Assembly (NCBI RefSeq): GCF_900103285.1
Contig: NZ_FNGS01000009.1
Coordinates: forward strand, 1 to 64,000
Origin: Siphonobacter aquaeclarae
GTDB taxonomy: Bacteria > Bacteroidota > Bacteroidia > Cytophagales > Spirosomataceae
Length of the DNA: 64,000 bases
Reading direction: 5' to 3'
Position numbers and translations under genes: made by a program. The stretch's first letter is position 1. Every line of letters begins with the position of its first letter. The notes under the pieces are model-generated. The model did not search any database. It saw nothing but the letters and a program-made list of their open reading frames with translations, and was not told the origin of the DNA. Shown one piece after another: positions 12,864 through 60,995 of the stretch.

Positions 12864-12926
12864 GAGGCATGGGGCAGAGGGCACGGGGTGGAAAACGGCC
12901 CCATGCCCTCTGCCCCGAGCCCTATG
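12864..12926. repeat. Heptamer inverted array, family 1 (GGGGCAG type), locus A
   Basis: The left arm is made of the words GAGGCAT, GGGGCAG, AGGGCAC and GGGG (12864-12888). The right arm is CCCCATG, CCCTCTG, CCCCGAG, CCCTATG (12899-12926). Eighteen bases pair with one mismatch across a 10-base spacer. The last right-arm word overlaps the stop codon of the RND pump gene. There is no T-tract of the kind seen in ordinary terminators. Confidence 0.85.
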
Positions 12927-15900
12927 CTTCCGCAACGCGGGGCGGCAGCAGCAAATACATCACGGGGGTCACGAGGCGCGACAGGAGCGTCGAGCTGATG
13001 ATCCCGCCGATCAATACCAGCGCCAGGGGCGAATACAGGTCGGAGTACTCGATTACCAGCGGAACCAGCCCCCCGATGGCCGTCAGCGAGGTCAGCAGAA
13101 TCGGAACGAACCGGATTTCCCCCGCTTCCAGAATCGCTTCCTTCAGGCCCATACCCTGCTCCCGGAGCTGATTGGTGAAGTCAACGAGCAGCAGCGAGTT
13201 TTTCACTTCGATACCTACCAGTGCGATGAAGCCGATGGTGGCCGTAAACGAGAGCGTTTCGCCGGCAAACAGCAGGGCCAGTATGGCGCCGATCACACCG
13301 AGCGGTATTACCGAAAGGACGATCACCGTGCTCTTGAAGTTGCCAAATTCGAGAATGAGGACCGAAATAAAGCCGAATACCGCGATGATGATGATGACGC
13401 CCATCCCGCCGAAACTGCGTTCGCGGCTTTCCTGCTCCCCGGATACGTCGTAGCTGAAACCCGTCGGGAATTTCATCTTGTCGAGCTTCTGAATCAGGGT
13501 ATTGTTGAGCTCGGAAACGTTATAGCCTGTCTGCGCAAAACAGGAAAGGATGACATACCGCCGTTTGTCGTAGTGGCGGATTCCGTTGGGCGAGGATTCA
13601 AACCGGATATCGGCCAACTGGTTCAGGGGCATGGCTGTTCCCTGCACATTGTTGATATACAGGCGGGAGAATACGTCCATTTCCTGGATCGGACCCTTGC
13701 GGGGAATACTGACGGCGATAGGGTAGTCGTCGCCCGCCTCGTCCCGATACGTACCGACATTGAGCCCGGCTATACCCAGACGTGTCATCCGGTCGATTTC
13801 CGCCGTCGAAACGCCCAGCAGACCGGCCTTTTCCTTGTTGATCGAAACCTTCAGATCCGTAGGCTGTACCTTCAGCGGGTTATCCACATAGATAGTACCG
13901 GCGGTATTTTTCATCATGGCTTCGATTTCGAAGGCAAACCGGCGTAGAGTATCGAGGTTTTCTCCGTAAATCCGGTAGGCAATCGGCGCGGCTACCGGTA
14001 CGCCCTGCTCGAAGTTTTTGACCTGTATCGTCGCCCCGGGATAGTATTTCAGCTTCATCCGGAGGGAGTCGATCAGGATGACTTTTTCTTTCGTGGGAAG
14101 TTCCGGATCGGTCTGGACAAAGAGCTGTGCATAGTGCGGCGTCTCGTTCTTCTGTAGTTCATTGTAGTACACCCGCGGATTACCCTTGCCAACGTTCGTC
14201 GATATACTTCGAACGCCTTCCGTCTTTTTCAGTACTCCTTCTACATACCTTGCCACACTATCCGTCTGGTACAGATTGGTACCTGCCGGCAGTTCGATGT
14301 TGACGAGGAACATTGGTTTTTCGGACCGTGGAAAGAGGCTGAAACCTACCGACGGAATCAGCGCCAGTGAACCGCCGAAAATCGTCAGCGCAATCACCAG
14401 CATGGCTATGGGATGTTTCAGGGCCCAGTCGAGCGCCTTGCCATAGCTACCGGAAATAACCCGTTTCAAGGTGCGCAGGATGAGGTTGCCGTCCGGGTTT
14501 TCGTGGCGGGAGAGAATCACGCTGGAGAGGAAAGGTACTACCGTCAGCGAGACAATCATCGACGCAAATACCGTCAGAATCACCGCCAGAGGAAGGCTCC
14601 GGATAAACGCCCCGGCATCTTCCGGCATGAAAACAATCGGCAGGAAGGCGAAAATGAGGAGGATCGTACACCCGACTACCGCCATGCCGATCTGTTTCGT
14701 CGCGCCGATGGCCGCATCACGCCGGGAATGCCCTTCCCGCAGGAAGCGTTCAATATTTTCCACAACCACGATACTGTCATCCACCAAAATCCCGAGCGCC
14801 ACGATCATCCCTACAATACTCAACTGGTTGATGTTGTAACCGAGGAGGTTGAGCAGCGTCAGCCCGATCGCGAGGGAAAGCGGTATTGAAATCATCACGA
14901 CGAGGCTCGCCCGCGTGCCGAGCGGCAGCAACGTGATGAGTACCAGGCAGATCGCGATACCGAAGTCTTTTCCGAGACGGCTGAGGCGGTTGCTCACGCT
15001 TTCCGGCTGGTCGAATACCTTCACGAGGTCCATGTTTTTCGGTAGCTTTTCCCGGAATTTTTCAATAGCCGGTTCAACCTTGTCCCGCGTTTGAATGATG
15101 TTGTTGCCGTCTTTCTGACTGACGGTCAGGAAAAGGCAGCGGTGCCCGTTGTACCGGGTGACGTGCTTTTCATCCTCATATCCCATCCGGACATCGGCGA
15201 TATCCTTCAGCAACACAATCCTCGAACCGTTGGAAAAAACGATGGTATTGCGGATTTCTTCGAGGGAGGAATAATCGCCGGAGGTCTTGACGTTGAATTT
15301 TTTCTGACCGGCATGGATAGCGCCGCCGGGAATATTCACGTCTTCCGACTGAATCGCCTGAAGTACCTGACCGGCGGGAATTTTATCTGCCGCCATTTTG
15401 CTCAGGTTCAGGTCCACGACTACCTTCTGCTCCGGAAAGCCCCAGATATTGACGTTTTTCAGCGCCTTGATTTTTTCCAGTTCGTCCTGCAGGTCTTCCG
15501 CCGTTTTGCGCATGGCGCTGTACGGAGCATTCTCGCTGACCAGTGCCCATTGGTAGATGGAGACGTCGGACGGCACAAACTTCTGTATCCGGACGTCGAG
15601 GATATCCGCAGGGAGGTCTTTCCGCGAAGCATTGACTTCCCGGACGATTTCCTGGTACTTCTTCTCCGGGTCTTCCGAAAACAGGTATTTCACCTGAAAA
15701 AACGCCAGCCCGTCGGAAATATCCGTCCGGATGTAATCGACGTTATCGAGCTCGCTGAGTTTCTTTTCTAGCGGCTCCACGACCAGCTTTTCCATGTCTT
15801 CCGGATTGGTGCCGGGGTAGATCACCGCGACCCCGAACTGAGGCGAGGAGTATTCTGGATCTTCGTTGCGGGGCATGTTGAAGAGGGAGTAAATCCCGAG

Positions 15901-15969
15901 CGACAGCACCGCGAGGAAGACGACGAGCGTAAACTGGTAATTCTTGACTGAGAATTCGGCTATTTTCAT
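12922..15969 (-). CDS. RND (AcrB/HAE1-type) multidrug efflux permease
   Basis: 1015 residues, standard for the resistance-nodulation-division family. The first transmembrane helix (YQFTLVVFLAVLSLGIYSL) is followed by a large periplasmic loop, then helices with the paired acidic residues used for proton transfer (GILVDDSIVVVENIERF, about residues 395-411), a second periplasmic loop and the final helix bundle. It exports small molecules using the proton gradient, as the inner-membrane part of a tripartite pump with the two genes just upstream (gap to the fusion protein 13 bases). Whether the substrate is drug or metal cannot be decided. Expression is probably governed by the TetR sites described at 18418 and 20526. 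Confidence 0.93.
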   Translation of the reverse strand: MKIAEFSVKNYQFTLVVFLAVLSLGIYSLFNMPRNEDPEYSSPQFGVAVIYPGTNPEDMEKLVVEPLEKKLSELDNVDYIRTDISDGLAFFQVKYLFSEDPEKKYQEIVREVNASRKDLPADILDVRIQKFVPSDVSIYQWALVSENAPYSAMRKTAEDLQDELEKIKALKNVNIWGFPEQKVVVDLNLSKMAADKIPAGQVLQAIQSEDVNIPGGAIHAGQKKFNVKTSGDYSSLEEIRNTIVFSNGSRIVLLKDIADVRMGYEDEKHVTRYNGHRCLFLTVSQKDGNNIIQTRDKVEPAIEKFREKLPKNMDLVKVFDQPESVSNRLSRLGKDFGIAICLVLITLLPLGTRASLVVMISIPLSLAIGLTLLNLLGYNINQLSIVGMIVALGILVDDSIVVVENIERFLREGHSRRDAAIGATKQIGMAVVGCTILLIFAFLPIVFMPEDAGAFIRSLPLAVILTVFASMIVSLTVVPFLSSVILSRHENPDGNLILRTLKRVISGSYGKALDWALKHPIAMLVIALTIFGGSLALIPSVGFSLFPRSEKPMFLVNIELPAGTNLYQTDSVARYVEGVLKKTEGVRSISTNVGKGNPRVYYNELQKNETPHYAQLFVQTDPELPTKEKVILIDSLRMKLKYYPGATIQVKNFEQGVPVAAPIAYRIYGENLDTLRRFAFEIEAMMKNTAGTIYVDNPLKVQPTDLKVSINKEKAGLLGVSTAEIDRMTRLGIAGLNVGTYRDEAGDDYPIAVSIPRKGPIQEMDVFSRLYINNVQGTAMPLNQLADIRFESSPNGIRHYDKRRYVILSCFAQTGYNVSELNNTLIQKLDKMKFPTGFSYDVSGEQESRERSFGGMGVIIIIAVFGFISVLILEFGNFKSTVIVLSVIPLGVIGAILALLFAGETLSFTATIGFIALVGIEVKNSLLLVDFTNQLREQGMGLKEAILEAGEIRFVPILLTSLTAIGGLVPLVIEYSDLYSPLALVLIGGIISSTLLSRLVTPVMYLLLPPRVAEA

Positions 15970-15982
15970 GGCAGACGGGCGG

Positions 15983-17047: not shown

Positions 17048-17057
17048 GGGAAAGGGG

Positions 17058-18434: not shown

Positions 18435-18441
18435 GGGGTGG

Positions 18442-21488: not shown

Positions 21489-22142
21489 ATGGAAATCATC
21501 AAAGCATTACTGGATTTTCTGTTGCACCTGGACCGATATCTCGATATCTGGGTGAACGAGTACGGACTCCTGACCTACGGCATTCTCTTTCTGATTGTCT
21601 TTGTCGAGACAGGCCTGATTGTGATGCCGCTGCTGCCCGGTGATTCCCTGTTGTTTGCTGCCGGCGCGCTCGCCGCCCGCGATACCAACGAGCTCTCCGT
21701 TCTTGTCATCATACCCCTGCTGATCGTCGCTGCGCTGATGGGGGATAACCTGAATTACTTTGTCGGAAAGAACTTTTCCAGTCTGATCAAGTCGCGGGAA
21801 CGCATCCTGTTTTTCAAGCGGGATTACCTGACCAAGACCGAAGAATATTACGCCAAATACGGCGGGCAGACGGTGATCATCGCCCGGTTTGTCCCCATCG
21901 TCCGGACGGTGGCCCCGTTTGTGGCCGGCGCCGGCAGCATGACCTACGGCCGCTATATTTTCTTCTGCATCGCCGGAGCTGTGTTGTGGGTAACCAGCAT
22001 TTCCCTGCTCGGCTACTTCTTCGGTAACCTCGAAATCGTCAAGAAGAACTTTGAAATTGTCGTCTTCGGCATCATCGGTTTGTCTGTATTGCCGATTGTG
22101 TGGGGGATTATTAAAGAGAAGTTTCTGAGTAAGGCGGCATAG
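21489..22142 (+). CDS. DedA family integral membrane protein
   Basis: 217 residues with the DedA/SNARE-associated (VTT) architecture: an amphipathic N-terminus, a hydrophobic segment (YGILFLIVFVETGLIVMPLL), the conserved FVETG and PGDSLLFAAGALAA motifs (about 37-60), the loop with ARFVPIVRTVAPFVAGAGSM (about 134-153) and further helices to the end. DedA proteins act in membrane homeostasis as lipid scramblase or proton-dependent carriers, exact substrate unknown. Probably co-transcribed with comA. Confidence 0.9.
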   Translation: MEIIKALLDFLLHLDRYLDIWVNEYGLLTYGILFLIVFVETGLIVMPLLPGDSLLFAAGALAARDTNELSVLVIIPLLIVAALMGDNLNYFVGKNFSSLIKSRERILFFKRDYLTKTEEYYAKYGGQTVIIARFVPIVRTVAPFVAGAGSMTYGRYIFFCIAGAVLWVTSISLLGYFFGNLEIVKKNFEIVVFGIIGLSVLPIVWGIIKEKFLSKAA

Positions 22143-22148: not shown

Positions 22149-22239
22149 AGTAAGCTTTAAGCGATAGGCTGTAGGCTATAAGCGGGAGAAAGGGCTCTGG
22201 AGCCTATCGCTTACGGCTTACAGCCTATTGCTTATCGCC
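22149..22239. repeat. Heptamer inverted array, family 2 (NNTARGC type), locus E
   Basis: Left arm of five heptamers: AGTAAGC, TTTAAGC, GATAGGC, TGTAGGC, TATAAGC (22149-22183). Right arm of five: GCCTATC, GCTTACG, GCTTACA, GCCTATT, GCTTATC (22202-22236), then GCC. Nineteen bases (22158-22176) pair with 22216-22234 with two mismatches. It fills the gap between dedA and aroE, which are in the same direction. Confidence 0.88.
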
Positions 22240-22255
22240 TCAAACCCATTTCACC

Positions 22256-23017
22256 ATGCACCTCTTTGGCCTGATCGGATACCCGCTGGGGCATTCCTTT
22301 TCGAAACGCTATTTCTCCGAAAAATTTGAGCGGGAGGGTATTTCTTCCGACTACCGGTACGAACTGTTCGAAATTCCGGAGGCGACGGAATTACCGGAGC
22401 TGATCGCCGCCAACCCGGATCTGAAAGGACTCAACGTTACGATTCCGCACAAAAAGGCCGTCATGCCGTTCCTGGCCGAGCTCGATCCCCTGGCCGAACG
22501 CATCGGCGCCGTAAACGTGATCAGGGTACTGCCCGGCGGCAAATTGAAAGGCTATAACTCCGACTACTGGGGTTTCCGGCTGTCCCTCGAAACCTGGGCG
22601 CCGTTTCTGCAACACCGGCCGACACATGCCCTGATTCTGGGCGACGGCGGTGCAACCAGCGCCGTACGCGTAGCTCTCGAAGACCTGGGTATTGCCTTTA
22701 GAACCGTCTCCCGGAAAGACGACCCCGCTTTCTTCCGTTACGAAGACCTGACCGAAGATATACTGGCTCAGTATACCCTGATTATCAACGCGACACCCCT
22801 CGGTACCTACCCGAAAACCGATACATTCCCGCCGATTCCCTACTCCTTCCTCACGGATCATCACCTGTTGTACGACCTGGTCTACAACCCGGAAGAAACC
22901 GTTTTCATGGCCAAAGGCCGGGAACAGGGCGCTGCCGCTCACAACGGCTACCGCATGCTGGAATTGCAGGCGGAGAAGTCGTGGGAAATCTGGGAAGGTA
23001 TGGAGCATGGGGCATAG
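22256..23017 (+). CDS. aroE: Shikimate dehydrogenase
   Basis: 253 residues, typical length. The shikimate-binding N-terminus GLIGYPLGHSFSKRYF, the catalytic lysine in NVTIPHKKAVMPFL (about 60-73), the GAVNVI motif, NSDYWGF and the nucleotide loop LILGDGGATSAVRVAL (about 125-140) are all present, as is INATPLGTYPKTD. It reduces 3-dehydroshikimate with NADPH in the chorismate pathway. The last residues (GMEHGA) are encoded by the first words of the family 1 repeat at 23002-23056, and the stop TAG lies inside that repeat. Confidence 0.93.
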   Translation: MHLFGLIGYPLGHSFSKRYFSEKFEREGISSDYRYELFEIPEATELPELIAANPDLKGLNVTIPHKKAVMPFLAELDPLAERIGAVNVIRVLPGGKLKGYNSDYWGFRLSLETWAPFLQHRPTHALILGDGGATSAVRVALEDLGIAFRTVSRKDDPAFFRYEDLTEDILAQYTLIINATPLGTYPKTDTFPPIPYSFLTDHHLLYDLVYNPEETVFMAKGREQGAAAHNGYRMLELQAEKSWEIWEGMEHGA

Positions 23018-23056
23018 GGCTTTCAAACCCCATGCCATCTGCCCTCTGCCCCCTGC
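23002..23056. repeat. Heptamer inverted array, family 1, locus B
   Basis: Left arm GGAGCAT, GGGGCAT, AGGGC (23002-23020); right arm CCCCATG, CCATCTG, CCCTCTG, CCCCCTG (23028-23055). The perfect core pairs 8 bases (23005-23012 with 23028-23035). It lies between the convergent aroE and ribD genes and supplies the final codons and stop of aroE and the last nine codons of ribD. Confidence 0.82.
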
Positions 23057-24063
23057 CATACCGTAAGCTCATCAACACCAACCCTTTCCCTCAATACCTG
23101 CTTCGCTGTAAAATGCGGGGCAGGTATTCCTTTTTTCAGGAAGGCAGGACTGCGGAACAGACGTATTTCGTCCCAGCAGCTTTCTGCAAGAAAGGATTCG
23201 AGCAGGCGTGTACCGCCTTCGACGAGTACGCTCTGGATATTCCGGGTTTTGAGGTCGGCAAGCATCGTCGTCAGCGACCAGTCAGACAGCGTAGCATAGG
23301 TTAGGTTTGGACCCGGTTCCCGTTCCTTTTCAGTGAAAACAAGGGTAGGCTGGCTGCCGTCGAATACGTGCAGGTCAGGCGGTAAGGAAAGAGTGCGGTC
23401 GGGTATGATTCTGAGCGGGTTACGACCCGTCCACGCGCGCACGTTCAGGCGGGGGTTGTCGGTTCGGGCGGTATGCGTGCCGACCCAGATGGCGTCTTCT
23501 TCGCTTCGCCAGCGGTGGACGAGGCGCTGTGCTAACGGCCCCGAGATGGGCACCGGCTGGTAATCGGGACCGGCCAGGAAGCCGTCGGCCGTCTGTGCCC
23601 ATTTCAGAATGACGTACGGCCGCTGCTGTTCGATCCAGGTAAAAAACCGCCGGTTCAGTTCCCGCCCTTTTTGGGCCAGCATGCCGGTTTGTACCTGTAT
23701 GCCGGCTTGTCGCAGCTTATTGAGCCCGCGCCCGGCAACCAGGGGGTTCGGGTCGTCGTTGCAGACGATGACTTCCTTAACGCCTTCCTGAACAAGGCGA
23801 TCGGCGCAGGGCGGCGTCTTCCCGAAGTGAGAACAGGGTTCGAGGGTTACATAGACTGTCGATTCCGGTAATAAATGGCGCTCGGTCACGCTATTCAGGG
23901 CGTTTACTTCGGCATGTGCCTGCCCGTATTGCCGGTGCCAGCCTTCGCCGATGATCCGGCCGTTGTGGACAATGACGCAGCCGACCATCGGGTTGGGGGC
24001 TACGTGCCCCTGGCCGAGCAGGGCCAGTTGCAGCGCGCGTTGCATGAACAGTTCATGATTCAT
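23023..24063 (-). CDS. ribD: Bifunctional diaminohydroxyphosphoribosylaminopyrimidine deaminase / 5-amino-6-(5-phosphoribosylamino)uracil reductase
   Basis: 346 residues. The N-terminal zinc deaminase domain shows HAEVNAL (about 50-56) and EPCSHFGKTPPCADRL (about 76-91) with the zinc-binding His and two Cys; the C-terminal reductase domain (about 145-340) has PYVILKWAQTADGFLA and SVLVEGGTRLLESFL. It carries out the second and third steps of riboflavin synthesis. The last residues GAEGRWHGV are encoded by the family 1 heptamer repeat. The start codon lies only five bases after a perfect hairpin with a T7 run (24069-24098), an unusual leader. No other rib gene is adjacent. Confidence 0.92.
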   Translation of the reverse strand: MNHELFMQRALQLALLGQGHVAPNPMVGCVIVHNGRIIGEGWHRQYGQAHAEVNALNSVTERHLLPESTVYVTLEPCSHFGKTPPCADRLVQEGVKEVIVCNDDPNPLVAGRGLNKLRQAGIQVQTGMLAQKGRELNRRFFTWIEQQRPYVILKWAQTADGFLAGPDYQPVPISGPLAQRLVHRWRSEEDAIWVGTHTARTDNPRLNVRAWTGRNPLRIIPDRTLSLPPDLHVFDGSQPTLVFTEKEREPGPNLTYATLSDWSLTTMLADLKTRNIQSVLVEGGTRLLESFLAESCWDEIRLFRSPAFLKKGIPAPHFTAKQVLRERVGVDELTVWQGAEGRWHGV

Positions 24064-24103: not shown

Positions 24104-24176
24104 TTTTCTGTGTAGTCTGTGTTTTCTGTGAGAAAAAAATAATAGATCTCACAGAAAACACAGACTACACAGAAGG
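24104..24176. repeat. 28-bp perfect hairpin built from 9-nt words
   Basis: Bases 24106-24133 are exactly complementary to 24147-24174, with a 13-base AT-rich loop. Each arm consists of three 9-nt words of the form NNNTCTGTG (left: TTTTCTGTG, TAGTCTGTG, TTTTCTGTG; right: CACAGAAAA, CACAGACTA, CACAGAAGG). It lies between the His-rich lipoprotein gene and the ribD terminator and holds no promoter that I can recognise. Confidence 0.9.
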
Positions 24177-24658: not shown

Positions 24659-24690
24659 GGTGAAAAGGTAGTGTAGTCGGAATAGAACGC

Positions 24691-24823
24691 TATATGCTTT
24701 AAGCTGTATGCAATATGCGATACACTTTCGAAAGAAAAAGAAAAAAAGGCGCGACTAAACCCTCTGCCTCCGGCTTAACGCCTGTAGCTTAATGCTTACA
24801 ACCTATAGCTTAACGCTTACAGC
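24691..24823. repeat. Heptamer inverted array, family 2, locus F
   Basis: Left arm of four words TATATGC, TTTAAGC, TGTATGC, AATATGC (24691-24718). Right arm of seven words GCTTAAC, GCCTGTA, GCTTAAT, GCTTACA, ACCTATA, GCTTAAC, GCTTACA (24773-24821). The arms are unequal and pair imperfectly. The array fills the gap between the MerT-like gene and the lipoprotein gene and ends 6 bases from the MerT-like stop codon. Confidence 0.82.
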
Positions 24824-24828
24824 ATTCC

Positions 24829-29935: not shown

Positions 29936-31009
29936 GTGAAAACAGCGATCCTCTTTCTTCTTCTTTTCTTTGGAAAAGCCATTACGTCTCGGGGCGAAGA
30001 ACTACCCGTCCGCTTCGAAAAAAATGTGGAAGTACTCGGCCTGGCCTATCTCATCGGCTTTCACGGGCCGGAGCTGGAAGCCGACCCGGCAAAGAAGGGG
30101 CAGTACCCCATTGCCTGGCGACACTACACCGAGTTCCGGCAGTACGCCGGGAGTCCCAACCTGCAGAAAAGCCTCGGCGTTGCCGATCACCTCTGGCTGG
30201 ATTACCTCATCGCGCTGCTGGTGCAGGTGGACGAGTTTCCCAATGCCCGGTTGCCGGAAACCATTTCCGAGTCGGCCTATCTCCGTTTCTCACAGAAAAA
30301 AGACAAAACCGAAGCAAAGGTATTGGCTCAGCAGTTTCTGGATGGACTGAATGCCTTTTACCGGGAAGCCGATTTTGATAATTACTGGAAAAGAGAAGCG
30401 CCTCTCTATGCCGAAACAGCGAAAGAAGTAAAAGCCCGCTTTCCTCAGGAGCCGATCGTTACTGCTATTGAACAGTTTTACCGGTCGAAAAAAGACAGCT
30501 ATACACTTGTGCCGAGCCTGACCCTTCCGGCTGGTATGGGCTTCGGCATCTGGCAGCAAAAGGAGGGGAAGAACCACATACTCAACGTCTTCGGGCCGGT
30601 CAGTAATCAGGAGGGAGGAAGTAACGGCTTCGCGGACGTACAGCGACTGCGCGACCTGACCATTCACGAATTCAGCCACCCGTTTGCCAATCCCGAAATC
30701 GACAAACAACAATCGGAAGCAATACAGGCAACGGAAAAGCGCTACGAACCCATTCGTGAATCCATGACAAACCAGGGCTATCCAACCTGGAAAATATGTC
30801 TGTACGAACATTTCGTCCGCGCAGGAGAGGTAGTCATCGCCCGGAATGCCGGAAGGGAAGAAGACGCCCGGCGGCTATTGGATTACAATACCAACGAGCG
30901 GAAGTTTATCTATCTCCCCGAAATCGTTGATCAGCTGACCCGCTACTCACGCACGCCTTCCCTGAACTATACGGAAGCAGTGAGGCGAGTACTGGATGGG
31001 TGGAGGTAG
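29936..31009 (+). CDS. DUF4932 family exported protein with HExxH motif
   Basis: 357 residues if started at GTG 29936 (MKTAILFLLLFFGKAITSRGEE, a signal peptide). A TTG at 29921 in frame is an alternative and no ATG is available. The central part has TIHEFSHPFANPEID around residues 242-256, a perfect HExxH zinc-protease motif (H244, H248). A later EHFVRAGEVVIARN segment could supply the third ligand. DUF4932 proteins are uncharacterised, and a metallopeptidase role is inferred. The gene stands between the tandem hairpin at 29853 and the heptamer array at 31007, whose first word contains its stop codon. Confidence 0.78.
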   Translation: MKTAILFLLLFFGKAITSRGEELPVRFEKNVEVLGLAYLIGFHGPELEADPAKKGQYPIAWRHYTEFRQYAGSPNLQKSLGVADHLWLDYLIALLVQVDEFPNARLPETISESAYLRFSQKKDKTEAKVLAQQFLDGLNAFYREADFDNYWKREAPLYAETAKEVKARFPQEPIVTAIEQFYRSKKDSYTLVPSLTLPAGMGFGIWQQKEGKNHILNVFGPVSNQEGGSNGFADVQRLRDLTIHEFSHPFANPEIDKQQSEAIQATEKRYEPIRESMTNQGYPTWKICLYEHFVRAGEVVIARNAGREEDARRLLDYNTNERKFIYLPEIVDQLTRYSRTPSLNYTEAVRRVLDGWR

Positions 31010-31064
31010 GCAGAGGGCATGGGGCATGGGGCAGAGCTTCTCACCCCATGCCCTCTGCCCCTTG
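31007..31064. repeat. Heptamer inverted array, family 1, locus C
   Basis: Left arm TAGGCAG, AGGGCAT, GGGGCAT, GGGGCAG (31007-31034); right arm CCCCATG, CCCTCTG, CCCCTTG (31044-31064). Sixteen bases (31009-31024) pair perfectly with 31044-31059. It spans the whole gap between the convergent DUF4932 and glycerophosphodiesterase genes; the first word contains the DUF4932 stop codon and the last base before the other stop is part of the right arm. Confidence 0.88.
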
Positions 31065-31919
31065 CTATTTCTTCAGCACCTCCGCCATTTCCAGCGGCCG
31101 GTCCGTCGACATAATGTCTGCCCCGTTTTTCACAAAATCGAGGTATACCTTATCGCCGCGGGCCTGCGCCATTTTATCGAGGTTACCCAGGGTTCCGAGA
31201 ATACACGGGATACCTTTTTTGTGAAGGAAGGCATAGTGTTCAACAGACGGCTCGCGGGTGCCGACAAACGCCACCATGCGGTTGTCCGGAATACCCAGTT
31301 CGTGGTGGCGGTTGTACTCGGCCTCGTTCCGGATGGTCACGGAGATCATCAGGTTCGGGTCCAGGCGATGGACTTTGGCGGCATCCTGCGCGTTGTAGGT
31401 AATCACGACGGAGATATCCTCGGTATGCGTCTTGTGAATGAGATCAACTATCTTCTCAAATGGAACATTCCGCTTGATATCGAGCGTGTAAATGACTTTT
31501 CCCTTTCCCCAGTTTAGTACCTTCTCCAGCGTTGGCATGCGGTACTTCGTGACAGTACCGGCGTTGTCTTTCAGGAAAAGCTGCTGGGTATAGGCATAGC
31601 TGACTTCGTTGAGCTTGCCGGTGCCGGTGGTCGTCCGGTTCAGGACGTCGTCGTGGAGCATGACAAGTACGCTGTCTTTCGTCAATCCGATGTCACACTC
31701 GATGACCATAGCGGCTTTCCGGGCCAGGTAGGAGAACGATTCGATGCAGTTTTCGGGATAACCGGCATAGTCTCCGCCGCCGCGGTGCGCGCTGATAAAG
31801 GTTTTTCCGCCGGGTTTGAGGTAGGATTCCAGCCCGTTTTTCGGGACCGAAAGGTATGTTTTGGGTGCGCAGCCTGCGAGCAACAGCAGACCGGCGAGCA
31901 GTAATCGGTTCATAGCCAT
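31065..31919 (-). CDS. Glycerophosphodiester phosphodiesterase (lipoprotein)
   Basis: 284 residues (or 282 if started at the third codon, MNRLLLAG). The lipoprotein signal has lipobox LLAGC. The GDPD catalytic pattern is complete: SAHRGGGDYAGYPENCIESF (about 42-61) with the first catalytic His and the Glu, then ECDIGLTKDSVLVMLHDD (about 74-91) with the acidic metal ligands and second His, and RTTTGTG. It hydrolyses glycerophosphodiesters to glycerol-3-phosphate and alcohol, here anchored to a membrane in the periplasm or at the surface. Confidence 0.92.
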   Translation of the reverse strand: MAMNRLLLAGLLLLAGCAPKTYLSVPKNGLESYLKPGGKTFISAHRGGGDYAGYPENCIESFSYLARKAAMVIECDIGLTKDSVLVMLHDDVLNRTTTGTGKLNEVSYAYTQQLFLKDNAGTVTKYRMPTLEKVLNWGKGKVIYTLDIKRNVPFEKIVDLIHKTHTEDISVVITYNAQDAAKVHRLDPNLMISVTIRNEAEYNRHHELGIPDNRMVAFVGTREPSVEHYAFLHKKGIPCILGTLGNLDKMAQARGDKVYLDFVKNGADIMSTDRPLEMAEVLKK

Positions 31920-40784: not shown

Positions 40785-40853
40785 GCCTGATTTTGCCGGA
40801 TTTGCTGTCAGCATGTATCTTAGGAGTTTGATATCAACAAATAAGTAACGGGC

Positions 40854-40955
40854 TGTAAGCTTTAAGCTGTAGGCAATGGGCTAGATGCTGCCGGGAGGGA
40901 TACTGAAAGCCCGGACGCGTCTGAAACTTAACGCTTACAGCCAACCGCTTACAGC
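40854..40955. repeat. Heptamer inverted array, family 2, locus G
   Basis: Left arm of five words TGTAAGC, TTTAAGC, TGTAGGC, AATGGGC, TAGATGC (40854-40888); right arm ACTTAAC, GCTTACA, GCCAACC, GCTTACA (40926-40953), then GC. GGCTGTAAGC (40851-40860) pairs perfectly with 40933-40942. It lies between two genes in the same direction and ends 11 bases before the M28 peptidase start. Confidence 0.85.
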
Positions 40956-42535: not shown

Positions 42536-42563
42536 CGACGCCTGGAGACGGGCGTCGTTTTTT
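42536..42563 (+). terminator. Intrinsic terminator after the M28 peptidase
   Basis: CGACGCC (42536-42542) pairs with GGCGTCG (42551-42557), loop of 8, followed by six T. Confidence 0.85.
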
Positions 42564-42594
42564 ATTGGGGGATTAGTGTTTGGAGTAGAATGAT

Positions 42595-42662
42595 AATTGG
42601 TAGGCTGCGCCTACCGCAATTCGAACCCCAAAACTGAAAACAGCAAACGGAAGACCGGAAAC
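42595..42662. repeat. TAGGC hairpin plus single-arm TGAAAAC heptamer array
   Basis: GGTAGGC-TGC-GCCTACC (42599-42615) is a perfect hairpin whose core TAGGC-N3-GCCTA recurs at 44321-44333. Next to it are four heptamers, TGAAAAC, AGCAAAC, GGAAGAC, CGGAAAC (42635-42662), related to family 3 at 44155-44454 but without a partner arm nearby. The array ends four bases from the LytTR stop codon. Confidence 0.7.
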
Positions 42663-43519: not shown

Positions 43520-44152
43520 ATGTCTTTTCTGCATTCGGGGAACATCTTCGTTCACGTCGCCGCCGGGCTGCTGGCAATTGTTTTGGGAACTTTCGCGCTT
43601 ACGACGGGCAAAGGAGGGCCCGCTCACCGGAAATTCGGCCGCTGGTTTCTGATGACATTGGCAGTTGTGGTAGGTACGGGGCTTATAGGCGCCGTTTTTT
43701 TCCGGGCGAGTCCTTTCCTATTGATTCTGACGTTGCTGGCAGGCTATGTCGGATATGCCGGTTTCCGGGTAGTCCGTTTTCGGGAACGGAGATTGGCTGT
43801 TCAGGATATGCTGGTCGCAGCGGGGGTACTGGCGACCGGTCTCGGCAGTCAGCTGCTGAATCCGAATATCTCCTGGAACAGCTCGGTCATTACTTCCACG
43901 CTTTCAGCGCTGGTATTGGTGACGGTGTACGACCTGCTTAAGTACTTCTGGTTTTTCGAACGGTGGAAAAAGCTCTGGTTATACGAGCATATCTATAAGA
44001 TGACCTCGGCCTTCAGTGCACTGTTGTCCGCTTTCGGCGGAAATGTGCTGCGGGATTACCAGCCGTATAGTCAGTTACTTCCGTCGGTGCTGGGAGTAGG
44101 GATTTTTGTCTGGTTTTGGTGGAGGGTAGGGAGGGGGAAGCAGGCGGTTTAG
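43520..44152 (+). CDS. Multi-pass membrane protein, DUF2306-like
   Basis: 210 residues from ATG 43520 (MSFLHSGNIFVHVAAG); a TTG at 43508 in frame is possible but poorer. About six hydrophobic helices are visible (HVAAGLLAIVLGTFALTTGK, WFLMTLAVVVGTGLIGAVFF, LLILTLLAGYVGYAGFRVVR). The pattern HVAAG...TGKGGPAHRKFG resembles DUF2306-type proteins, whose function is unknown. It is divergently placed to the LytTR regulator with a 145-bp gap, so it may be a target; no clear promoter was found in that gap. Confidence 0.72.
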   Translation: MSFLHSGNIFVHVAAGLLAIVLGTFALTTGKGGPAHRKFGRWFLMTLAVVVGTGLIGAVFFRASPFLLILTLLAGYVGYAGFRVVRFRERRLAVQDMLVAAGVLATGLGSQLLNPNISWNSSVITSTLSALVLVTVYDLLKYFWFFERWKKLWLYEHIYKMTSAFSALLSAFGGNVLRDYQPYSQLLPSVLGVGIFVWFWWRVGRGKQAV

Positions 44153-44154
44153 GG

Positions 44155-44454
44155 GTTTTCGGTTTGTTGTTTTCAGTTTGCTGTTTTCAGTTTTCAGTTG
44201 GAGCGTGATAGGGGTTGTCAGCGCTATTTGCCTGCCGTGCGTAGCATGTGCTACGCACGGCAGGCATAGGATTACGTTGAAAGCTATTTGGTCTTTAGCT
44301 ACTTAACGTGTATAGACCATTAGGCGCAGCCTATTAGAAAAAAGTGCGTAGCGGATGCTACCGTAGCGGAGCTACGCACGGCAGGCAAACCGTTCTGACA
44401 AGCTCTGCCCGCCTCCAACTGAAAACAGTAAACTGAAAACTGAAAACTGAAAAC
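44155..44454. repeat. 300-bp nested inverted element, family 3 (GTTTTCA heptamers)
   Basis: Outer arms: GTTTTCG, GTTTGTT, GTTTTCA, GTTTGCT, GTTTTCA, GTTTTCA (44155-44196), then GTTGGAG; opposite arm CTCCAAC, then TGAAAAC, AGTAAAC, TGAAAAC, TGAAAAC, TGAAAAC (44420-44454). Inside are a perfect 17+17 bp palindrome (44230-44265), a TAGGC-N3-GCCTA hairpin (44321-44333) and GTGCGTAGC/GCTACGCAC (about 44344-44379), which repeats the words of the inner palindrome including GGCAGGC. There is no open reading frame. It fills the gap between two convergent genes and looks like a non-autonomous mobile or structured 3' element. Confidence 0.85.
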
Positions 44455-55584: not shown

Positions 55585-55720
55585 CTTCTGTGGATGGAAA
55601 AGGATTCGAACACAAGCCGTGCGCTCAAAAAGGCGCTGTTACAGGCAGATTGGGAAGAAAGACCGTCCGTTTGTGTTTCTAATAGGAAAAAATCAAAATG
55701 TAATTGTATTATTTCGAGAG

Positions 55721-55728
55721 CAAATGTA
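55721..55728 (-). promoter_or_regulatory. -7 element for the susC operon
   Basis: TACATTTG on the minus strand matches TAnnTTTG and would give a leader of about 130 bases before susC. No TTG at 19 bases; activated promoters often have poor -33 elements, and the divergent regulator is a likely activator. Confidence 0.5.
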
Positions 55729-55794
55729 CGGCAACGGAAAAAGAATGTCCTAAAAAAGCACTACATCAATACCACATCATAAGTGCTCCGCGCC

Positions 55795-55825
55795 TTGCAT
55801 GCGGTACATCATTCGTACATATTTG
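55795..55825 (+). promoter_or_regulatory. Candidate promoter of the propeller/LuxR regulator
   Basis: TTG at 55795, 20 bases, then CATATTTG at 55818-55825 (one change from TAnnTTTG). Transcription would start about 25 bases before ATG 55858. Confidence 0.5.
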
Positions 55826-55857
55826 CACAAAAGGGAGAAAAAATTGATTGAAAGGCG

Positions 55858-58662
55858 ATGAAGACCTCTGATTGGAAGCGGACGTTACTGACGGGCCTGG
55901 TCGCGCTGTTGAGCGCCGGGCCGCTCCTGGCCTTTCAAGGTGCGCTGGGGAAGATGTGCCTGCCCGAAGTAGTACATTTTACACCGGCGGATTACAAGGC
56001 TCAACGCCAGAACTGGAGCCTGGTGCAGGATCCGAAAACCCGCTTCCTGTACGCCGGTAATTCGAAGGGATTGCTGGAATTCGACGGCCGTAAATGGCAG
56101 GTTTATACCTTACCCCGCCGGCAGATTGTGCGGTCGGTAGCGGTGGCCGACGGGAAGATATTCACCGGGGCCCTTCAGGAGTTTGGTTTCTGGCAGGCCG
56201 ACAGCCAAGGCGTATTGCGCTACCATTCCCTCGCGGGGCAGATTCAGGACAAACGTTTCCGTAACGAAGAAATCTGGAATATCCTGCCCGTCCGGGATGC
56301 GGTCTATTTTCACTCCTTTGCTTTTCTTTTCCGGTACAAAAACAACAAAATCACCCAGATACCTACGCCGGGCAACGTCTTCTTCGCCTATGAAGTCAAC
56401 AACCGCCTCCTGATCCAGTTTATAGACAAAGGACTCTTTGAGTGGGTGGGAGAGAAGTTTGTGCTGCTCAAAGGGAGCGAGTTTCTGGGGAAGGAGCGTA
56501 TCCGCTGCCTGCTGCCCCTGAGCGGCAACCGGCTGCTCGTCGGCACCGACCGCCTGCTTTTGACATACGACGGACAGCAGTTCACCCGCATGCAATCCGA
56601 AGCGGAGTCGTTTCTTTCTGCCTACCACCTCAACAAGGCCATCCGGGTCGATGACCGTACCCTGGCTTTCGGATCGATCCTCAACGGGCTGATTCTCACG
56701 GATGAAAACGGAAACATTCTCACCCACCTCAACCAGAAAAAAGGACTTCAGAACAATACGGTACTCGCCCTCAGACGCGACGCCGACGGCAACGTCTGGA
56801 CCGGCAACGACAGCGGAATAGACCTCGTCCTGCTGAGTTTACCGCTCCGTTATTACCAGGATCAGGACGGCGTGCTGGGTACGGTATACGACGCGGCCGT
56901 CTTCCGTGGGAAATTATACGTCGGAACCAATCACGGTGTTTTCGAAGTACCGCTGGCAGACCGGAATGCCGGTTTTCGCCTCGTTCCCGGTAGTCAGGGG
57001 CAGGTCTGGGACCTCGCCGTGATCGATGGAGAGCTTTTCTGTGGTCACAACGAAGGGACTTTTCTGATCCGGGACGGTACCTTTCAAAAGATATCGTCCG
57101 TCACCGGCGGCCTCGCCCTGATCCCGCTCACCCGCCATCCCGGGGTACTGCTGCAAGGGACCTATACTCATTTATGTGTATATAAAAAGATCGACGGCGC
57201 TTGGCAATTCAGTCATGTTCTTTCCGGTGATTTCTCGCTGACGCACCAGCTCGCCGAACTGGCCGACGGATCGGTCTGGCTCAAACGGAAATACGGCGGT
57301 CTGGCGGAGATTACCCTGTCGGATGATGTATCCAAACTGACTTCCGTCCGCACCATTGACGGTTTTCAGGATGCCAGCCTGACCTCGATGGAGGGCCGGG
57401 GAATATTATGCGCCGGCGGTCGTTCCTACGAGATACGCAACCGGAAAATCGTCCCGGTATCCCTCTTTGGAGAAGCGCCTATCCGGAATATCTTTCCGGT
57501 TGGATACCAGTCCTATGTCGTACTGAAAAACAACGGCGCATTGGGCTACTATCGCCCCGACCAGCCCGTCCAGGAGGTAAATCTGCGGCATATTCAATGG
57601 GTGGAAGGGTATGAGAACATTGTTCCGCTGGACGACGAGCAGGTACTCATCTGCCGGGACGATGGTTTTTCGGTACTGCCTGTTTCGTACCTCCGGAAGC
57701 GGGAAGATATGCCCTTTACCCGTCCTGACATACGCGAAATCCGGACCGATCAGCTCGAAATGGAGCTGTATCCACGCCAGCCGTTACCCAATCTCGCGCT
57801 CCGGCACTGGCAGAACGACCTCAGTTTCCGGATCAGTTCTACCCAGTACGAAGTCATTTTTGCCTGGCAATACTGGCTGGAAGGCAGCGGGAAGGAGCAG
57901 TGGTCAACCTGGCGGGAAGACGATTACCTCAAGTTTTCGGCGCTGCCACCCGGCGACTATGTCCTGCACCTCCGGTCGGCTTCTTCCCGGGATGAAACCG
58001 TGTTGCCGTTCCGGATACATCCGCCCTGGTACTGGAATACCTGGAGTCAGCTGATCTATACCTTATTGCTTATCGGGCTTTTGTATCTGGTGTACCGGTT
58101 GTACCGACGCCGGATTCAGACTCACCAGAACCGCATCCGTCAGAAAATGCAGGCCGAACTCGACGAGGAGCAGCGCCGCAATGCCCAGGTACTCGTAGAA
58201 CTGCGAAACGAACAGCTGCGGAAGGATGTACACCGGAAATCGGAAGAGCTGGCGAACTCCGCCATGAACCTCCTGCACAAAAACGAATTACTCGAAACGC
58301 TCAAGCAGGAGCTCGAAAAACTGCGGAAAGAAATGGGGACCGACCGCGGCGCCCAGCAGTACCGGACACTGGTACAACTGATAGACCGCAACCTCGCCGA
58401 CGAACACAGCTGGGAGCTGTTTGAGGCCAATTTCAACGATGTTCACGATCACTTCTTCAAAAAGCTGCTGGAGATGTTTCCGAACCTCACGCCGGGCGAC
58501 CTCAAACTGGCGGCCTACCTGCGCATGAACCTGTCGAGCAAGGAAATCGCACAATTGCTCAACATCACCGTCCGAAGCGTGGAGTTAAAACGCTACCGCC
58601 TGCGCGGCAAGCTGGAACTGGCTACGGAACAGAACCTGAATGAATTTCTGATGAAGATGTGA
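55858..58662 (+). CDS. One-piece membrane regulator: beta-propeller, Y_Y_Y domain, LuxR-type HTH
   Basis: 934 residues. A signal/anchor (LLTGLVALLSAGPLLAF) leads into a periplasmic beta-propeller (about 40-640, repeated blades such as GNVWTGNDSGIDLV and GKLYVGTNHGVFEV). A Y_Y_Y domain follows (about 655-720, WQYWLEGSGKEQWSTW, LPPGDYVLHLRSAS), then one transmembrane helix (about 731-748), a coiled coil (about 750-835) and a LuxR-type helix-turn-helix (about 876-918, LSSKEIAQLLNITVRSVELK). There is no kinase or receiver. It should sense an oligosaccharide in the periplasm and control the divergent susC operon, replacing the usual hybrid two-component sensor. Confidence 0.9.
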   Translation: MKTSDWKRTLLTGLVALLSAGPLLAFQGALGKMCLPEVVHFTPADYKAQRQNWSLVQDPKTRFLYAGNSKGLLEFDGRKWQVYTLPRRQIVRSVAVADGKIFTGALQEFGFWQADSQGVLRYHSLAGQIQDKRFRNEEIWNILPVRDAVYFHSFAFLFRYKNNKITQIPTPGNVFFAYEVNNRLLIQFIDKGLFEWVGEKFVLLKGSEFLGKERIRCLLPLSGNRLLVGTDRLLLTYDGQQFTRMQSEAESFLSAYHLNKAIRVDDRTLAFGSILNGLILTDENGNILTHLNQKKGLQNNTVLALRRDADGNVWTGNDSGIDLVLLSLPLRYYQDQDGVLGTVYDAAVFRGKLYVGTNHGVFEVPLADRNAGFRLVPGSQGQVWDLAVIDGELFCGHNEGTFLIRDGTFQKISSVTGGLALIPLTRHPGVLLQGTYTHLCVYKKIDGAWQFSHVLSGDFSLTHQLAELADGSVWLKRKYGGLAEITLSDDVSKLTSVRTIDGFQDASLTSMEGRGILCAGGRSYEIRNRKIVPVSLFGEAPIRNIFPVGYQSYVVLKNNGALGYYRPDQPVQEVNLRHIQWVEGYENIVPLDDEQVLICRDDGFSVLPVSYLRKREDMPFTRPDIREIRTDQLEMELYPRQPLPNLALRHWQNDLSFRISSTQYEVIFAWQYWLEGSGKEQWSTWREDDYLKFSALPPGDYVLHLRSASSRDETVLPFRIHPPWYWNTWSQLIYTLLLIGLLYLVYRLYRRRIQTHQNRIRQKMQAELDEEQRRNAQVLVELRNEQLRKDVHRKSEELANSAMNLLHKNELLETLKQELEKLRKEMGTDRGAQQYRTLVQLIDRNLADEHSWELFEANFNDVHDHFFKKLLEMFPNLTPGDLKLAAYLRMNLSSKEIAQLLNITVRSVELKRYRLRGKLELATEQNLNEFLMKM

Positions 58663-58670
58663 TGGCGCAT

Positions 58671-58724
58671 GAGGCATGGGGCAGAGGGCATGGGGCGAGT
58701 ATCCACCCCATGCCCTTTGCTACC
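58671..58724. repeat. Heptamer inverted array, family 1, locus D
   Basis: Left arm GAGGCAT, GGGGCAG, AGGGCAT, GGGGC (58671-58696); right arm CCCCATG, CCCTTTG (58706-58719), then CTACC. Fifteen bases pair with one mismatch across a 10-base spacer. It lies between the convergent regulator and mraY genes and reaches the mraY stop codon (58720-58722). Confidence 0.85.
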
Positions 58725-59952
58725 TCAGCTTGAGTGTTACCAGCGTGAATACCGCGAAAATGATGCCTACGATGAGGAAGCGCATCACGATTTTCGGCTC
58801 AGGGATATTCGATTTCTGGTAGTGGTGGTGAAGAGGCGACATTTTGAAAAGCCTGTGAGACTGCGCATACTCCAGGCCGCGTCGTTTCTTCTGGTATTTG
58901 AAATAACCCACCTGCAGAATTACGGACATATTTTCGATCACGAAGATGCCGCAGAGAACAGGAATGAGGAGCTCTTTCCGGAGGACGATCGCGAGCGTCG
59001 CGATGACGCCGCCCAGCATCAGACTGCCCGTGTCGCCCATGAAAACCTGAGCCGGATACGTATTGTACCATAAAAACCCGATACAGGCTCCGATAAAGGC
59101 GCCGCAAAAGACGACCAGCTCGCCGGAATACGGAATGTAGTAGATATTCAGGTACTGGGAGAAAACCTTGTTACCCGAAAGGTAAGCCAGAATACCCAGC
59201 GTAAGTCCGATGATGGTGGAAGAACCCGCCGCGAGGCCATCGATTCCGTCGGTAATATTCGCGCCGTTTGAAATGAAGGTAATGATGAAAATAACGATGA
59301 CGGTATACAGAATCCAGGTGTAGTCGTCGGGCAGGATGGAATCCGGGAGTATCTGTGAATAATCGATCTCGTTGTTTTTAAAGAAGGGAACGTTCGTCAG
59401 GAATGACTTGGTATCGGTAAACCGGCGTACGTCTTCAAAACCGCCGGGGGTATTGATTTTCGCGTCTTCGTATACCCGGATTTTAATATCGGGGGAAAAG
59501 TGCATCGTCAGGCCCACGAGAAGCCCGAGACCTACCTGCCCGACAATCTTGAACCGTCCGGGGAGACCTTCCTTGTTTTTCCGGAAGACCTTGATGTAGT
59601 CGTCCACAAACCCGATGAGCGAAGTCCATATTGTCGAAATCAGCAACAGTATGATGTAGGTATTGTTGAGGCGGGCAAACAGCAGTACCGGAACAACCAG
59701 CGCCAGGAGAATAATAAACCCGCCCATGGTAGGAGTACCTTTCTTCTGCATCTGGCCTTCGAGGCCGAGATCGCGGACGGTTTCGCCGATTTGCAGGCGT
59801 TGGAGGAACCAGATGATCCGTTTCCCGAACAGAATTCCGATAATGAGCGAAGTAACCGTTGCAGCGGCAGCCCGGAAGGTCAGGTATTGAAAAACTCCCG
59901 CACCGGGGATGTTGAAGGCTTTATCCAGGTAGTCGAAGAGATAGTAGAGCAT
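58720..59952 (-). CDS. mraY: Phospho-N-acetylmuramoyl-pentapeptide transferase
   Basis: 410 residues with about ten transmembrane helices. The conserved cytoplasmic motifs are present: KKGTPTMGG (about 70-78), the acidic pair FVDDYIKV (about 114-121), [10 protein letters not shown] (about 230-240), [11 protein letters not shown] and the His-rich loop SPLHHHYQK (about 373-381). It attaches phospho-MurNAc-pentapeptide to undecaprenyl phosphate, the first membrane step of peptidoglycan synthesis. It is usually in the division/cell-wall cluster; here no mur, fts or ddl gene adjoins it. Confidence 0.95.
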
Positions 59953-60041
59953 GCCGGGGATTAGGTATCACAATGCGACTGCTAAGTTCATCAAAAGGAC
60001 AGGAAAGGTGCAAATCCTCGGCAAAATACTGGAAAAAGAGA

Positions 60042-60065
60042 AAAGCCCGCCGGTGGGCGGGCTTT
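60042..60065 (-). terminator. Intrinsic terminator after ferritin
   Basis: AAAGCCCGCC (60042-60051) pairs perfectly with GGCGGGCTTT (60056-60065) around a GGTG loop; on the minus strand TTTTCTCTTTTT follows. It separates ferritin (stop 60090) from mraY. Confidence 0.85.
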
Positions 60066-60089
60066 CGCAAATGGGGGAGTAACAGATGC

Positions 60090-60614
60090 CTATTCTGCGC
60101 CGTTGATTTTGGCAATCTCCTTGTCGATCTGGAAACGGCCGGTTCCGGCTTCTCCAATGACGTCGAAGAGTTCGACCGCCCGGCGTGCGTTTTGTTCTTC
60201 TTCAATTTGTTCCTGTACGAACCACTGGAGGAAACTCTCCGTCGCGTAGTCGTCAATTTTCCGGCAGAGGCCAACGATCCGGTTGATGGCGTTGGTTACA
60301 TTGATTTCACTCTGAAGAGCGGTTTCGAATACTTCCCGGAAGGAGGCGTAATCCTGTGCAACTGCTCCGATTTCAGGAGCGTAAGCAGTTGCGCCCTGAT
60401 CGGCCAGGTAGTGGAAAATCTTCAGCATATGACCGCGCTCCTCGTCTGACTGCTTGTAGAAATAGTCGGCTGAGTGGCGGTATCCGTTGCGATCACACCA
60501 GGAGGCCATCGCCAGGTATTTGGAAGAAGCTTCGGCTTCCATTTTCACCTGAGCGTTGAGGGCTATTTCCACTTCCTCTTTGAGGGAGGTACGAAGGCGT
60601 TGCAGATCTTTCAT
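60090..60614 (-). CDS. Non-haem ferritin
   Basis: 174 residues. The four-helix ferritin fold shows the diiron ligands in order: Glu in EIALNAQVKMEAEASSKYLA (about 16-35), the EExxH motif in SDEERGHMLKIF (about 57-68), and QWFVQEQIEEEQNAR (about 128-142). It oxidises and stores iron as a 24-mer. A -7 element TACTTTTG lies at 60703-60710. It fits the iron theme of the Fur-like sites and siderophore receptor that follow. Confidence 0.93.
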   Translation of the reverse strand: MKDLQRLRTSLKEEVEIALNAQVKMEAEASSKYLAMASWCDRNGYRHSADYFYKQSDEERGHMLKIFHYLADQGATAYAPEIGAVAQDYASFREVFETALQSEINVTNAINRIVGLCRKIDDYATESFLQWFVQEQIEEEQNARRAVELFDVIGEAGTGRFQIDKEIAKINGAE

Positions 60615-60702
60615 TGGTGACTGAGTATGTTATGAATGCGATAGATCAAAAAAATGCTCGTTGTCAGTGCCTTGATGGACTCTTCTTCGTCTGACTGTGA
60701 AA

Positions 60703-60710
60703 CAAAAGTA
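60703..60710 (-). promoter_or_regulatory. -7 element for ferritin
   Basis: TACTTTTG on the minus strand, the same octamer as in the comA promoter; no TTG at 19 bases. Leader of about 80 bases. The gap 60615-60817 holds nothing else recognisable. Confidence 0.5.
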
Positions 60711-60817
60711 GTATGCCACCGGACACGTTGAAATACTAACCCGCTGAAAAAGAGAAATTTAGAAAGAATCTTGTAACAAGAATAAATAAGGGAGGGGATT
60801 GGGAGGGCAGGAAAAGC

Positions 60818-60995
60818 TGCAGGCTATAAGCGATAGGCTGTAAGCACTAAGCTATGGGAAAGCGGCTGTGCTTCACAGACAAGTAATTAGGCGTCAGCGG
60901 CTTCCGGGGAAGAAATGAAAAGGAAGATACTAAATAAGAGCGGGGCAGGTCCCGCCGCAACCGGGCCTAAAGCCTATAGCTTATCGCCTATAGCC
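60818..60995. repeat. Heptamer inverted array, family 2, locus H
   Basis: Left arm TGCAGGC, TATAAGC, GATAGGC, TGTAAGC, ACTAAGC (60818-60852); right arm GCCTAAA, GCCTATA, GCTTATC, GCCTATA (60965-60992), then GCC. The arms are 112 bases apart; no gene is seen between them. It lies between the start of ferritin and the 3' end of the small protein gene at 61011. Confidence 0.83.

Follow-up and report, generated by a model that had tools for sequence, protein, structure and literature searches.

Opposed arrays of short degenerate words, mostly heptamers, at gene ends of Siphonobacter aquaeclarae and related Bacteroidota

Described heptanucleotide repeats and the elements of this study

Inverted pairs of degenerate intergenic heptamers are already known from Xanthomonas, and the elements described here are a variant of that kind. 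They were found in the first 64,000 nucleotides of contig NZ_FNGS01000009.1 (assembly GCF_900103285.1) of Siphonobacter aquaeclarae, hereafter the window, as two opposed arms between genes, each arm a row of degenerate words. The accessible part of PMC4692102 describes GGGAATC repeats in Xanthomonas and GGGGA(T/C)T repeats in Nostoc, which, like ours, are degenerate heptamers lying between genes; in Xanthomonas, two sites in convergent orientation were counted in 70 and 75 cases. To judge from the word "convergent", the G-rich strand would run inward in these pairs. An earlier, sequence-only reading of the window had set its two-armed arrays against single-direction heptamer arrays, a contrast that was incomplete given the convergent pairs on record in that source. 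According to the same text, the majority of the Xanthomonas repeats are flanked by the same genes in both of two related genomes and vary extensively in length and sequence, so rewriting at a kept site has a precedent. As far as that text goes, each genome there uses one word type, unlike the several unrelated words per genome found here. Further features that go beyond the Xanthomonas and Nostoc repeats are relatives with 9-nt and 8-nt words, the change of word at one site and, in some families, shared heads and mirrored free letters.

Other described systems correspond to the elements in part. The TAACTGA direct repeats of Beggiatoaceae, Cyanobacteria and some Bacteroidetes are intergenic heptamer arrays as well, some of them split by related 7-mers, but the available portion of PMC4679880 counts 169 direct sets but a single indirect repeat in the main genome and places the arrays mostly just before start codons. 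The heptanucleotide elements of Geobacter, in the available text of PMC2700814, are multicopy and consist of four or five tandem heptamers, and the five-heptamer class probably represents inverted pairs, as its legend describes a drawing that switches strands. The GGGACCG elements of Geobacter also occur inside genes, and that text does not present them as one class over many words. Similarly to the repetitive extragenic palindromes (REP) and bacterial interspersed mosaic elements (BIME), as characterised in the accessible part of PMC3733652, the elements are short multicopy palindromes behind genes, between convergent or co-directional genes; unlike them, they have periodic legs, no enrichment of GTAG/CGTC and no linked REP-associated tyrosine transposase (RAYT) at the loci examined. 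Intrinsic terminators are likewise strong hairpins at gene ends, and the gaps with elements often hold a canonical terminator in a relative, but T-runs are few here and the long stems carry periodic letters. In the open-licence literature of PubMed Central (PMC), we found partial parallels only and no paper that combines the use of several words with mirrored legs, with shared heads and with chirality.

Pitch, words, arms and placement

The pitch was analysed in the window and in forty 20-kb stretches taken at regular spacing on seven of the 19 contigs of the same 6.19-Mb genome (G000), 864 kb in total, in which a simple trained script, rather than a validated annotation, called 660 genes (88% coding) and left 421 intergenic regions of 98,199 bases. 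When sequence was matched to itself at a fixed offset (lag), the intergenic regions gave 51 segments with a score of at least 13 at lag 7, none at lags 6 and 8, and eight at lag 9, compared to 0.2 or fewer at each of the lags 6-9 in shuffled intergenic DNA (0.2 at lag 7). The excess of pitch 7 over 6 and 8, whose absence the sequence-only reading had named as its own refutation, is evident from these counts. Lags 14 and 21 were echoes of lag 7, and at a looser score of at least 11, lag 9 gave 31 intergenic segments. Coding DNA yielded two segments of score 13 or more at lag 7, five at lag 6 and six at lag 9. A word-free census of intergenic inverted repeats, with a score of at least 12 and gaps up to about 1440 nt (longer gaps excluded), recovered 155 hairpins, 48 of which were periodic (31 at lag 7, 17 at lag 9, none at 6 or 8) and 98 non-periodic, while nine fell between these groups and entered neither in the comparisons. 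The pitch, which had been called fixed at 7 nt, is dominant rather than fixed because a two-armed element with the 9-nt word TCTGTGNAN lies in the window itself; 8-nt families are found in other genera.

The genome contains at least four word types of 7 nt and one of 9 nt. Besides NNTARGC and RGGGCAK (55 genome matches to a strict triple against none for the reversed control, overlapping registers included here as in all pattern-search counts), these comprise GTTTNNN (GTTTTCA, GTTTAGA, GTTTAGG), NNTCRGC and the two-armed TCTGTGNAN. The three families first noticed in the window do have unrelated words; they are not sharply separate, since families meet in single elements or arms. The element of locus L032 joins an NNTARGC and an RGGGCAK arm, that of L044 has an NNTCRGC left arm and an RGGGCAK right arm, and in L046 one arm passes from NNTCRGC into NNTARGC words. 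The idea that every word contains a stop codon was rejected by eye, RGGGCAK and GTTTTCA being free of stops on that strand. Near-perfect runs were seen in L067 and L048, and long GTTTAGA/GTTTAGG arrays at L067:12985-13050 and L044:12563-12665. The latter word is the same as the plant telomere repeat TTTAGGG, which is probably a coincidence. At L037:1942-2355, a stretch with an NNTARGC arm is present in three copies with a spacing of 189 nt.

The arms showed a prevailing chirality. G+T exceeded A+C in the 5' arm of 47 of the 48 periodic hairpins, compared to 32 of the 98 non-periodic ones, and G exceeded C in 45 (two ties) and 48 (17 ties), respectively. The word detector, whose loose single-arm threshold called 304 arms against 141 in shuffles and thus many false ones, ordered 84 arm pairs with the G+T arm first, 16 in reverse and 42 pointing the same way. 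In some families the free letters between the anchors were mirrored: among elements with intact anchors, their agreement across arms was 0.94 within an element and 0.46 between loci in the 9-nt family (17 elements, one of them at 0.33), and 0.98 and 0.51 in genome G040 (six elements). Neighbouring units within an arm were no more alike than permuted ones (NNTARGC 0.325 vs. 0.364; RGGGCAK 0.304 vs. 0.356; GTTTNNN 0.522 vs. 0.538). With the RGGGCAK and NNTARGC families taken as A and B and GTTTNNN as C, neighbours were slightly less alike than permuted in B (39 of 2000 as low), with the same lean in A (192 of 2000) and C (259 of 2000). For RGGGCAK and NNTARGC, units of one arm resembled each other no more than units reassigned across loci, which for A and B is evidence against recent local duplication; GTTTNNN units were more alike within an arm.

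Two-armed arrays called by the word detector occupied 26 of 64 convergent, 30 of 275 tandem and 1 of 82 divergent gaps, and the periodic hairpins of the word-free census lay in 20 convergent, 28 tandem and no divergent gaps. As the non-periodic control hairpins were similarly placed (28, 61 and 9), much of this placement is common to other hairpins; random placement relative to gene ends, the second way in which the sequence-only reading could have failed, was not observed, with much of the bias shared in this manner. The nearest stop codon lay at a median of 5.5 nt from the periodic hairpins (within 20 nt in 39 of 48) and 16 nt from the non-periodic ones (within 20 nt in 62 of 89). In tandem gaps, the stop upstream was nearer than the following start for 23 of the 30 two-armed arrays.

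All nine sites named in the sequence-only reading carry two opposed arms of degenerate 7-mers and lie between predicted genes or just overlap gene ends, as it had stated. Two further two-armed elements, at 24106-24174 and 42557-42662, were added, and the window thus holds:

12861-12927: two-armed RGGGCAK, arms 12861-12888 and 12898-12927, at the stop codon of the minus-strand gene 12922-15969; fold z -7.28
22151-22240: two-armed NNTARGC, arms 22151-22183 and 22202-22240, 8 nt past the gene end at 22142; fold z -5.71
23002-23058: RGGGCAK, short left arm of about two units and right arm at about 23028-23058, between convergent genes; fold z -2.20
24106-24174: two-armed 9-nt TCTGTGNAN, arms 24106-24133 and 24147-24174, 28 nt each and 100% complementary; fold z -11.9 and -11.8 on the two strands
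24689-24828: two-armed NNTARGC, left arm 24689-24722, right arm about 24781-24828
31009-31065: two-armed RGGGCAK, between convergent genes; fold z -5.17
40851-40955: two-armed NNTARGC, arms 40851-40881 and 40927-40955; fold z -4.99
42557-42662: two-armed GTTTNNN, arms 42557-42586 (poor) and 42618-42662, adjoining a canonical terminator-like hairpin
44149-44454: two-armed GTTTTCA/GTTTNNN, arms 44149-44199 and 44417-44454, with a 217-nt loop that holds an unrelated repeat
58662-58720: two-armed RGGGCAK, between convergent genes; fold z -4.05
60814-60995: two-armed NNTARGC, arms 60814-60855 and 60965-60995, with a 109-nt loop

Six of the nine original sites (the four RGGGCAK sites and the NNTARGC sites 22149 and 40854) were folded as RNA and had z values from -2.2 to -7.3. 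Over ten RNA folds, two of them being both strands of one site, none of 200 shuffles was as good in nine cases and four of 200 in the tenth. Within the loop at 44200-44416 lie an inverted repeat of 18 bp without mismatch (TGCCTGCCGTGCGTAGCA...) and a copy related to it; L039, L048 and L034 have similar sequence in their loops, which marks another repeat family that is nested in the elements. Among the 14 Rfam matches in the window with E up to 1, none reached the gathering score.

Distribution in other genomes and rewriting at kept sites

The pattern of four GTTT(N3) units was found in 27 of 61 genomes of the family and in 16 of 36 genera, with a patchy distribution. In its two-armed form with pitch 7, GTTT matched six of 148 genomes of the phylum, with 84 matches in G000, four of the six genomes of genus g45 and a single match in G172; with pitch 8 it matched none of the 148. 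The reversed-pattern control, which has the opposite chirality, gave four matches in three of the 148 genomes at pitch 7 and seven in two at pitch 8, so the chirality rule has exceptions. By pattern, these seven matches, in G085 and G089, have CAAA words in the left arm. In a scan with the strict two-armed RGGGCAK pattern, only two contigs matched, one from Cytophagaceae and one from a metagenome-assembled genome of Planctomycetales. In the latter, at L180:2050-2160, a two-armed RGGGCRK-like array is followed by a terminator-like hairpin with a T-run, and the word thus occurs outside the phylum.

Elements with a constant head were frequent in genus g9 (G040, G056), where stretches were picked at known pattern matches and array counts are not unbiased. 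In G040, about four GTTTGNN-like units are combined with GTTGCGCTGC...GCAGCGCAAC and a variable loop, the GTTGCGCTGC head being present in most of the elements printed. The G056 head, GCTGACGC...GCGTCAGC, had 137 matching places compared to none for the control. At the 18 places whose legs were inspected, this one head stands on no fewer than six unrelated words of 7 nt and two of 8 nt. In 16 of these elements, one or both legs matched themselves best at lag 7, and in two the best lag was 8; 13 were mirrored over at least 20 bases with at most one mismatch (by reading), and the left leg had more G than C in all 18 and was G+T-rich in 17. This is the best case for the earlier view that unrelated words share a pitch, and in this respect the interpretation was supported; the single mechanism of making or keeping the arrays that it went on to propose would be a further step.

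Comparison of related genomes revealed that sites often persist while their text changes. Between the sister species G020 and G060, the 15 orthologous gaps (of 189) with a lag-7 run of at least 10 in either genome had a median identity of 0.78, compared to 0.93 for the other 174. Several of these arrays were wholly different between near-identical flanks, and three were conserved at 0.96-0.98. In genus g9, five gaps with an element in G056 could be compared with G040 (one through a single mapped flank), and four of them hold elements in both species with differing legs or heads. At site 1, GTTTNNN with the GCTGACGC head in G056 faces a GTTG element with a GCGCTG head in G040, and a canonical terminator-like hairpin lies beyond the element in both; the pairs at sites 2 to 4 are GTAAGCG and a GGAGAAC-like leg of irregular 7-8 pitch, AAGAATT and GTTTGNN, and TCTAAAGT-like words and GTTTGNN. 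It is possible, although doubtful, that a word-independent process writes and rewrites the legs of gene-end hairpins, setting anchors at a spacing of 7 nt, or of 8 or 9 in some families, with free letters in the intervals and the G-rich strand inward, site and architecture often being inherited and the text or the word replaced.

Candidate explanations

The elements have a hairpin architecture, are positioned at stop codons, are nearly absent from divergent gaps and frequently occupy the same gap in relatives with rewritten legs. Our preferred explanation, which we regard as somewhat more likely to fail than to hold, is that they are bidirectional 3'-end hairpins that bound transcripts. A palindromic element at a gene end would be read into RNA from either side, and its RNA would fold directly behind the stop codon into a barrier that stalls or ends transcription or shields the 3' end from exonucleases. 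The elements are presumably transcribed and mark the ends of transcripts, and it is probably their fold that matters. Because an anchor spacing of 7 (sometimes 8 or 9), free letters and a G+T-rich inward strand are shared whatever the word, what the legs have in common is probably a constraint and not the descent of the words.

The strength of the RNA folds, the mirrored free letters of the 9-nt family and of G040, and the four g9 sites filled in both species speak for this explanation. Several comparisons with canonical terminators are consistent with such a role. The ortholog of the 22151-22240 site in G020 and G060 is a canonical hairpin with a T-run, that of 60814-60995 holds a canonical hairpin, and behind the gene 58720-59952, at the place of the 58662-58720 element, G020, G060 and G046 have a canonical terminator-like hairpin. 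In the syntenic comparison of G000 with G020 (101 of 106 gap pairs retained), 80 non-divergent gaps lacked an array in G020; there, G020 had a canonical terminator in 9 of the 15 gaps with a G000 array and in 13 of the 65 without (p=0.0035), as called by a finder that reported 3 of 101 shuffled gaps. With a similar finder, a separate canonical terminator was found at 6 of 50 convergent gene ends with an element in G000 and at 25 of 72 without (p=0.006). The tests made with either of these finders covered gaps of up to 800 nt in G000. Among the 78 gene ends beside an element, 67 had no separate terminator, the element came first in five and the terminator in six.

Other results weigh against this explanation. 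T-runs (at least five T of eight after the hairpin or five A of eight before it) were scarcer, with 17% of the periodic and 38% of the other hairpins having one. The G020 enrichment was 5 of 15 vs. 14 of 65 with a first, poorer finder, since superseded, that failed to detect long loops and paired A/T tracts. The convergent contrast was not significant after length matching (6 of 36 vs. 9 of 28, p=0.23), tandem ends showed none (5 of 28 vs. 45 of 232), and the per-gap test revealed no exclusivity (11 of 25 vs. 20 of 36; 8 of 28 vs. 67 of 232). Loss of the canonical terminator in G000 was no commoner with arrays (three lost, six kept) than without (six lost, seven kept), one "kept" call being the array itself with a T-run. 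Moreover, the two arms of 7-nt elements in G000 did not match in the order of their free letters more than expected by chance, even when wobble pairs were allowed (4 pairs in A, 11 in B and 15 in C), some loops exceed 200 nt, and the fifth g9 site has an AAGAG element in G056 and none in G040. The idea that arrays simply replaced canonical terminators is striking for some individual sites, but was set aside as the lost and kept counts did not differ significantly.

Less probable, although a serious candidate, is that the elements are REP-like mobile or hitch-hiking palindromes without host function, copied by a transposase and tolerated only behind genes, their position reflecting purifying selection. 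The common heads of G056 and G040 in many copies are what such copying would leave, REPs are placed alike in the accessible part of PMC3733652 and the non-periodic hairpins here nearly so, and sister sites differ wholesale, the fifth g9 site being filled in one species and empty in the other. It does not agree with this idea that the other four g9 sites hold unlike elements in both species, that GTAG/CGTC base tags were found in 9 of 48 periodic and 11 of 98 other hairpins, i.e., without enrichment, or that no heptamer arms lie within 1.5 kb of the sole Y1_Tnp gene detected in G000. Around ten Y1_Tnp loci in G056, G040, G008 and G026, there was one lag-7 run (L187) and one G056 head about 1.2 kb away (L189), and none was seen to be flanked on both sides within 1.5 kb. 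Mobilisation of the arrays by RAYT was therefore rejected, no clear link being seen at Y1_Tnp loci, the only transposase type searched. Viral contigs gave no match to the exact two-armed pattern of the 9-nt family, a result that also counts against mobile palindromes, as does the 99-nt loop of one rewritten G060 site, which had no second copy in G060, G020, G046 or G000. Given this unique loop, ectopic copying of loops was likewise rejected. When 26 loops of at least 30 nt were compared with the sample, the matches were mostly array words and one unrelated repeat common to at least four loci. The Y1_Tnp match of G000, in L071 (G000:C18:329412-329756), is flanked by its own GACCCCGAAGGGGTC palindromes, and several of the ten other loci sit, by eye, beside other REP-type palindromes.

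Polymerase slippage with a 7-nt step, combined with template switching in the hairpin, could make and homogenise the legs without any function. In many bacteria, no long simple repeats are commoner than heptamers, for which slippage has been proposed, according to work cited in the available parts of PMC4679880 and PMC4692102. The mirrored arms of some families, the greater likeness of GTTTNNN units within than across arms and the near-perfect runs of L067 and L048 would fit, but neighbouring units that are no more alike than permuted ones, the alternation of anchors and free letters within units, words shared between loci of one genome and a single inward-G chirality make slippage improbable. 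Slightly less probable again are rows of sites at which an oligomeric protein would bind DNA or RNA in a register of 7 nt, the free letters serving as spacers. The recurrence of constant anchors every 7 nt across unrelated loci, separated by variable letters, has this appearance, and cold-shock proteins were suggested as heptamer binders for the TAACTGA arrays in the accessible part of PMC4679880; the many unrelated words per genome, even under one head, would require many proteins or one of little specificity.

Head-to-head telomere repeats show a chirality like that of the elements. Scars of broken ends that were extended by a telomerase-like enzyme and rejoined, with G+T-rich repeats on each 3' end forming opposed arms around a filler, would account for the G+T-rich 5' arms, the unmatched arms of three families, the one filler tested, which was unique, and rewriting between intact flanks, but are hardly credible given mirrored arms and constant heads elsewhere, variable units that do not look templated, two-armed matches of opposite chirality, and Ku, which occurs in 5 of 61 family genomes (four over the cut-off) and does not track the arrays. 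Ku and non-homologous end joining were rejected as the array maker: G023, G032 and G051 lack GTTT arrays despite having Ku, and Ku is missing from many genomes with arrays. The Ku match of G000 lies at G000:C14:133242-133775, and none was found in the three genomes of the same genus that were searched.

Returning to the elements as 3'-end hairpins and to their legs, the known prevalence of 7-nt repeats in bacterial intergenic DNA becomes testable because one pitch holds under unrelated words, even under one head, with a prevailing chirality and an exchange of words at a kept site. If one machinery reads or writes the legs, they would represent an overlooked layer of gene-end architecture; if there is no single machinery, the pattern still challenges simple slippage.

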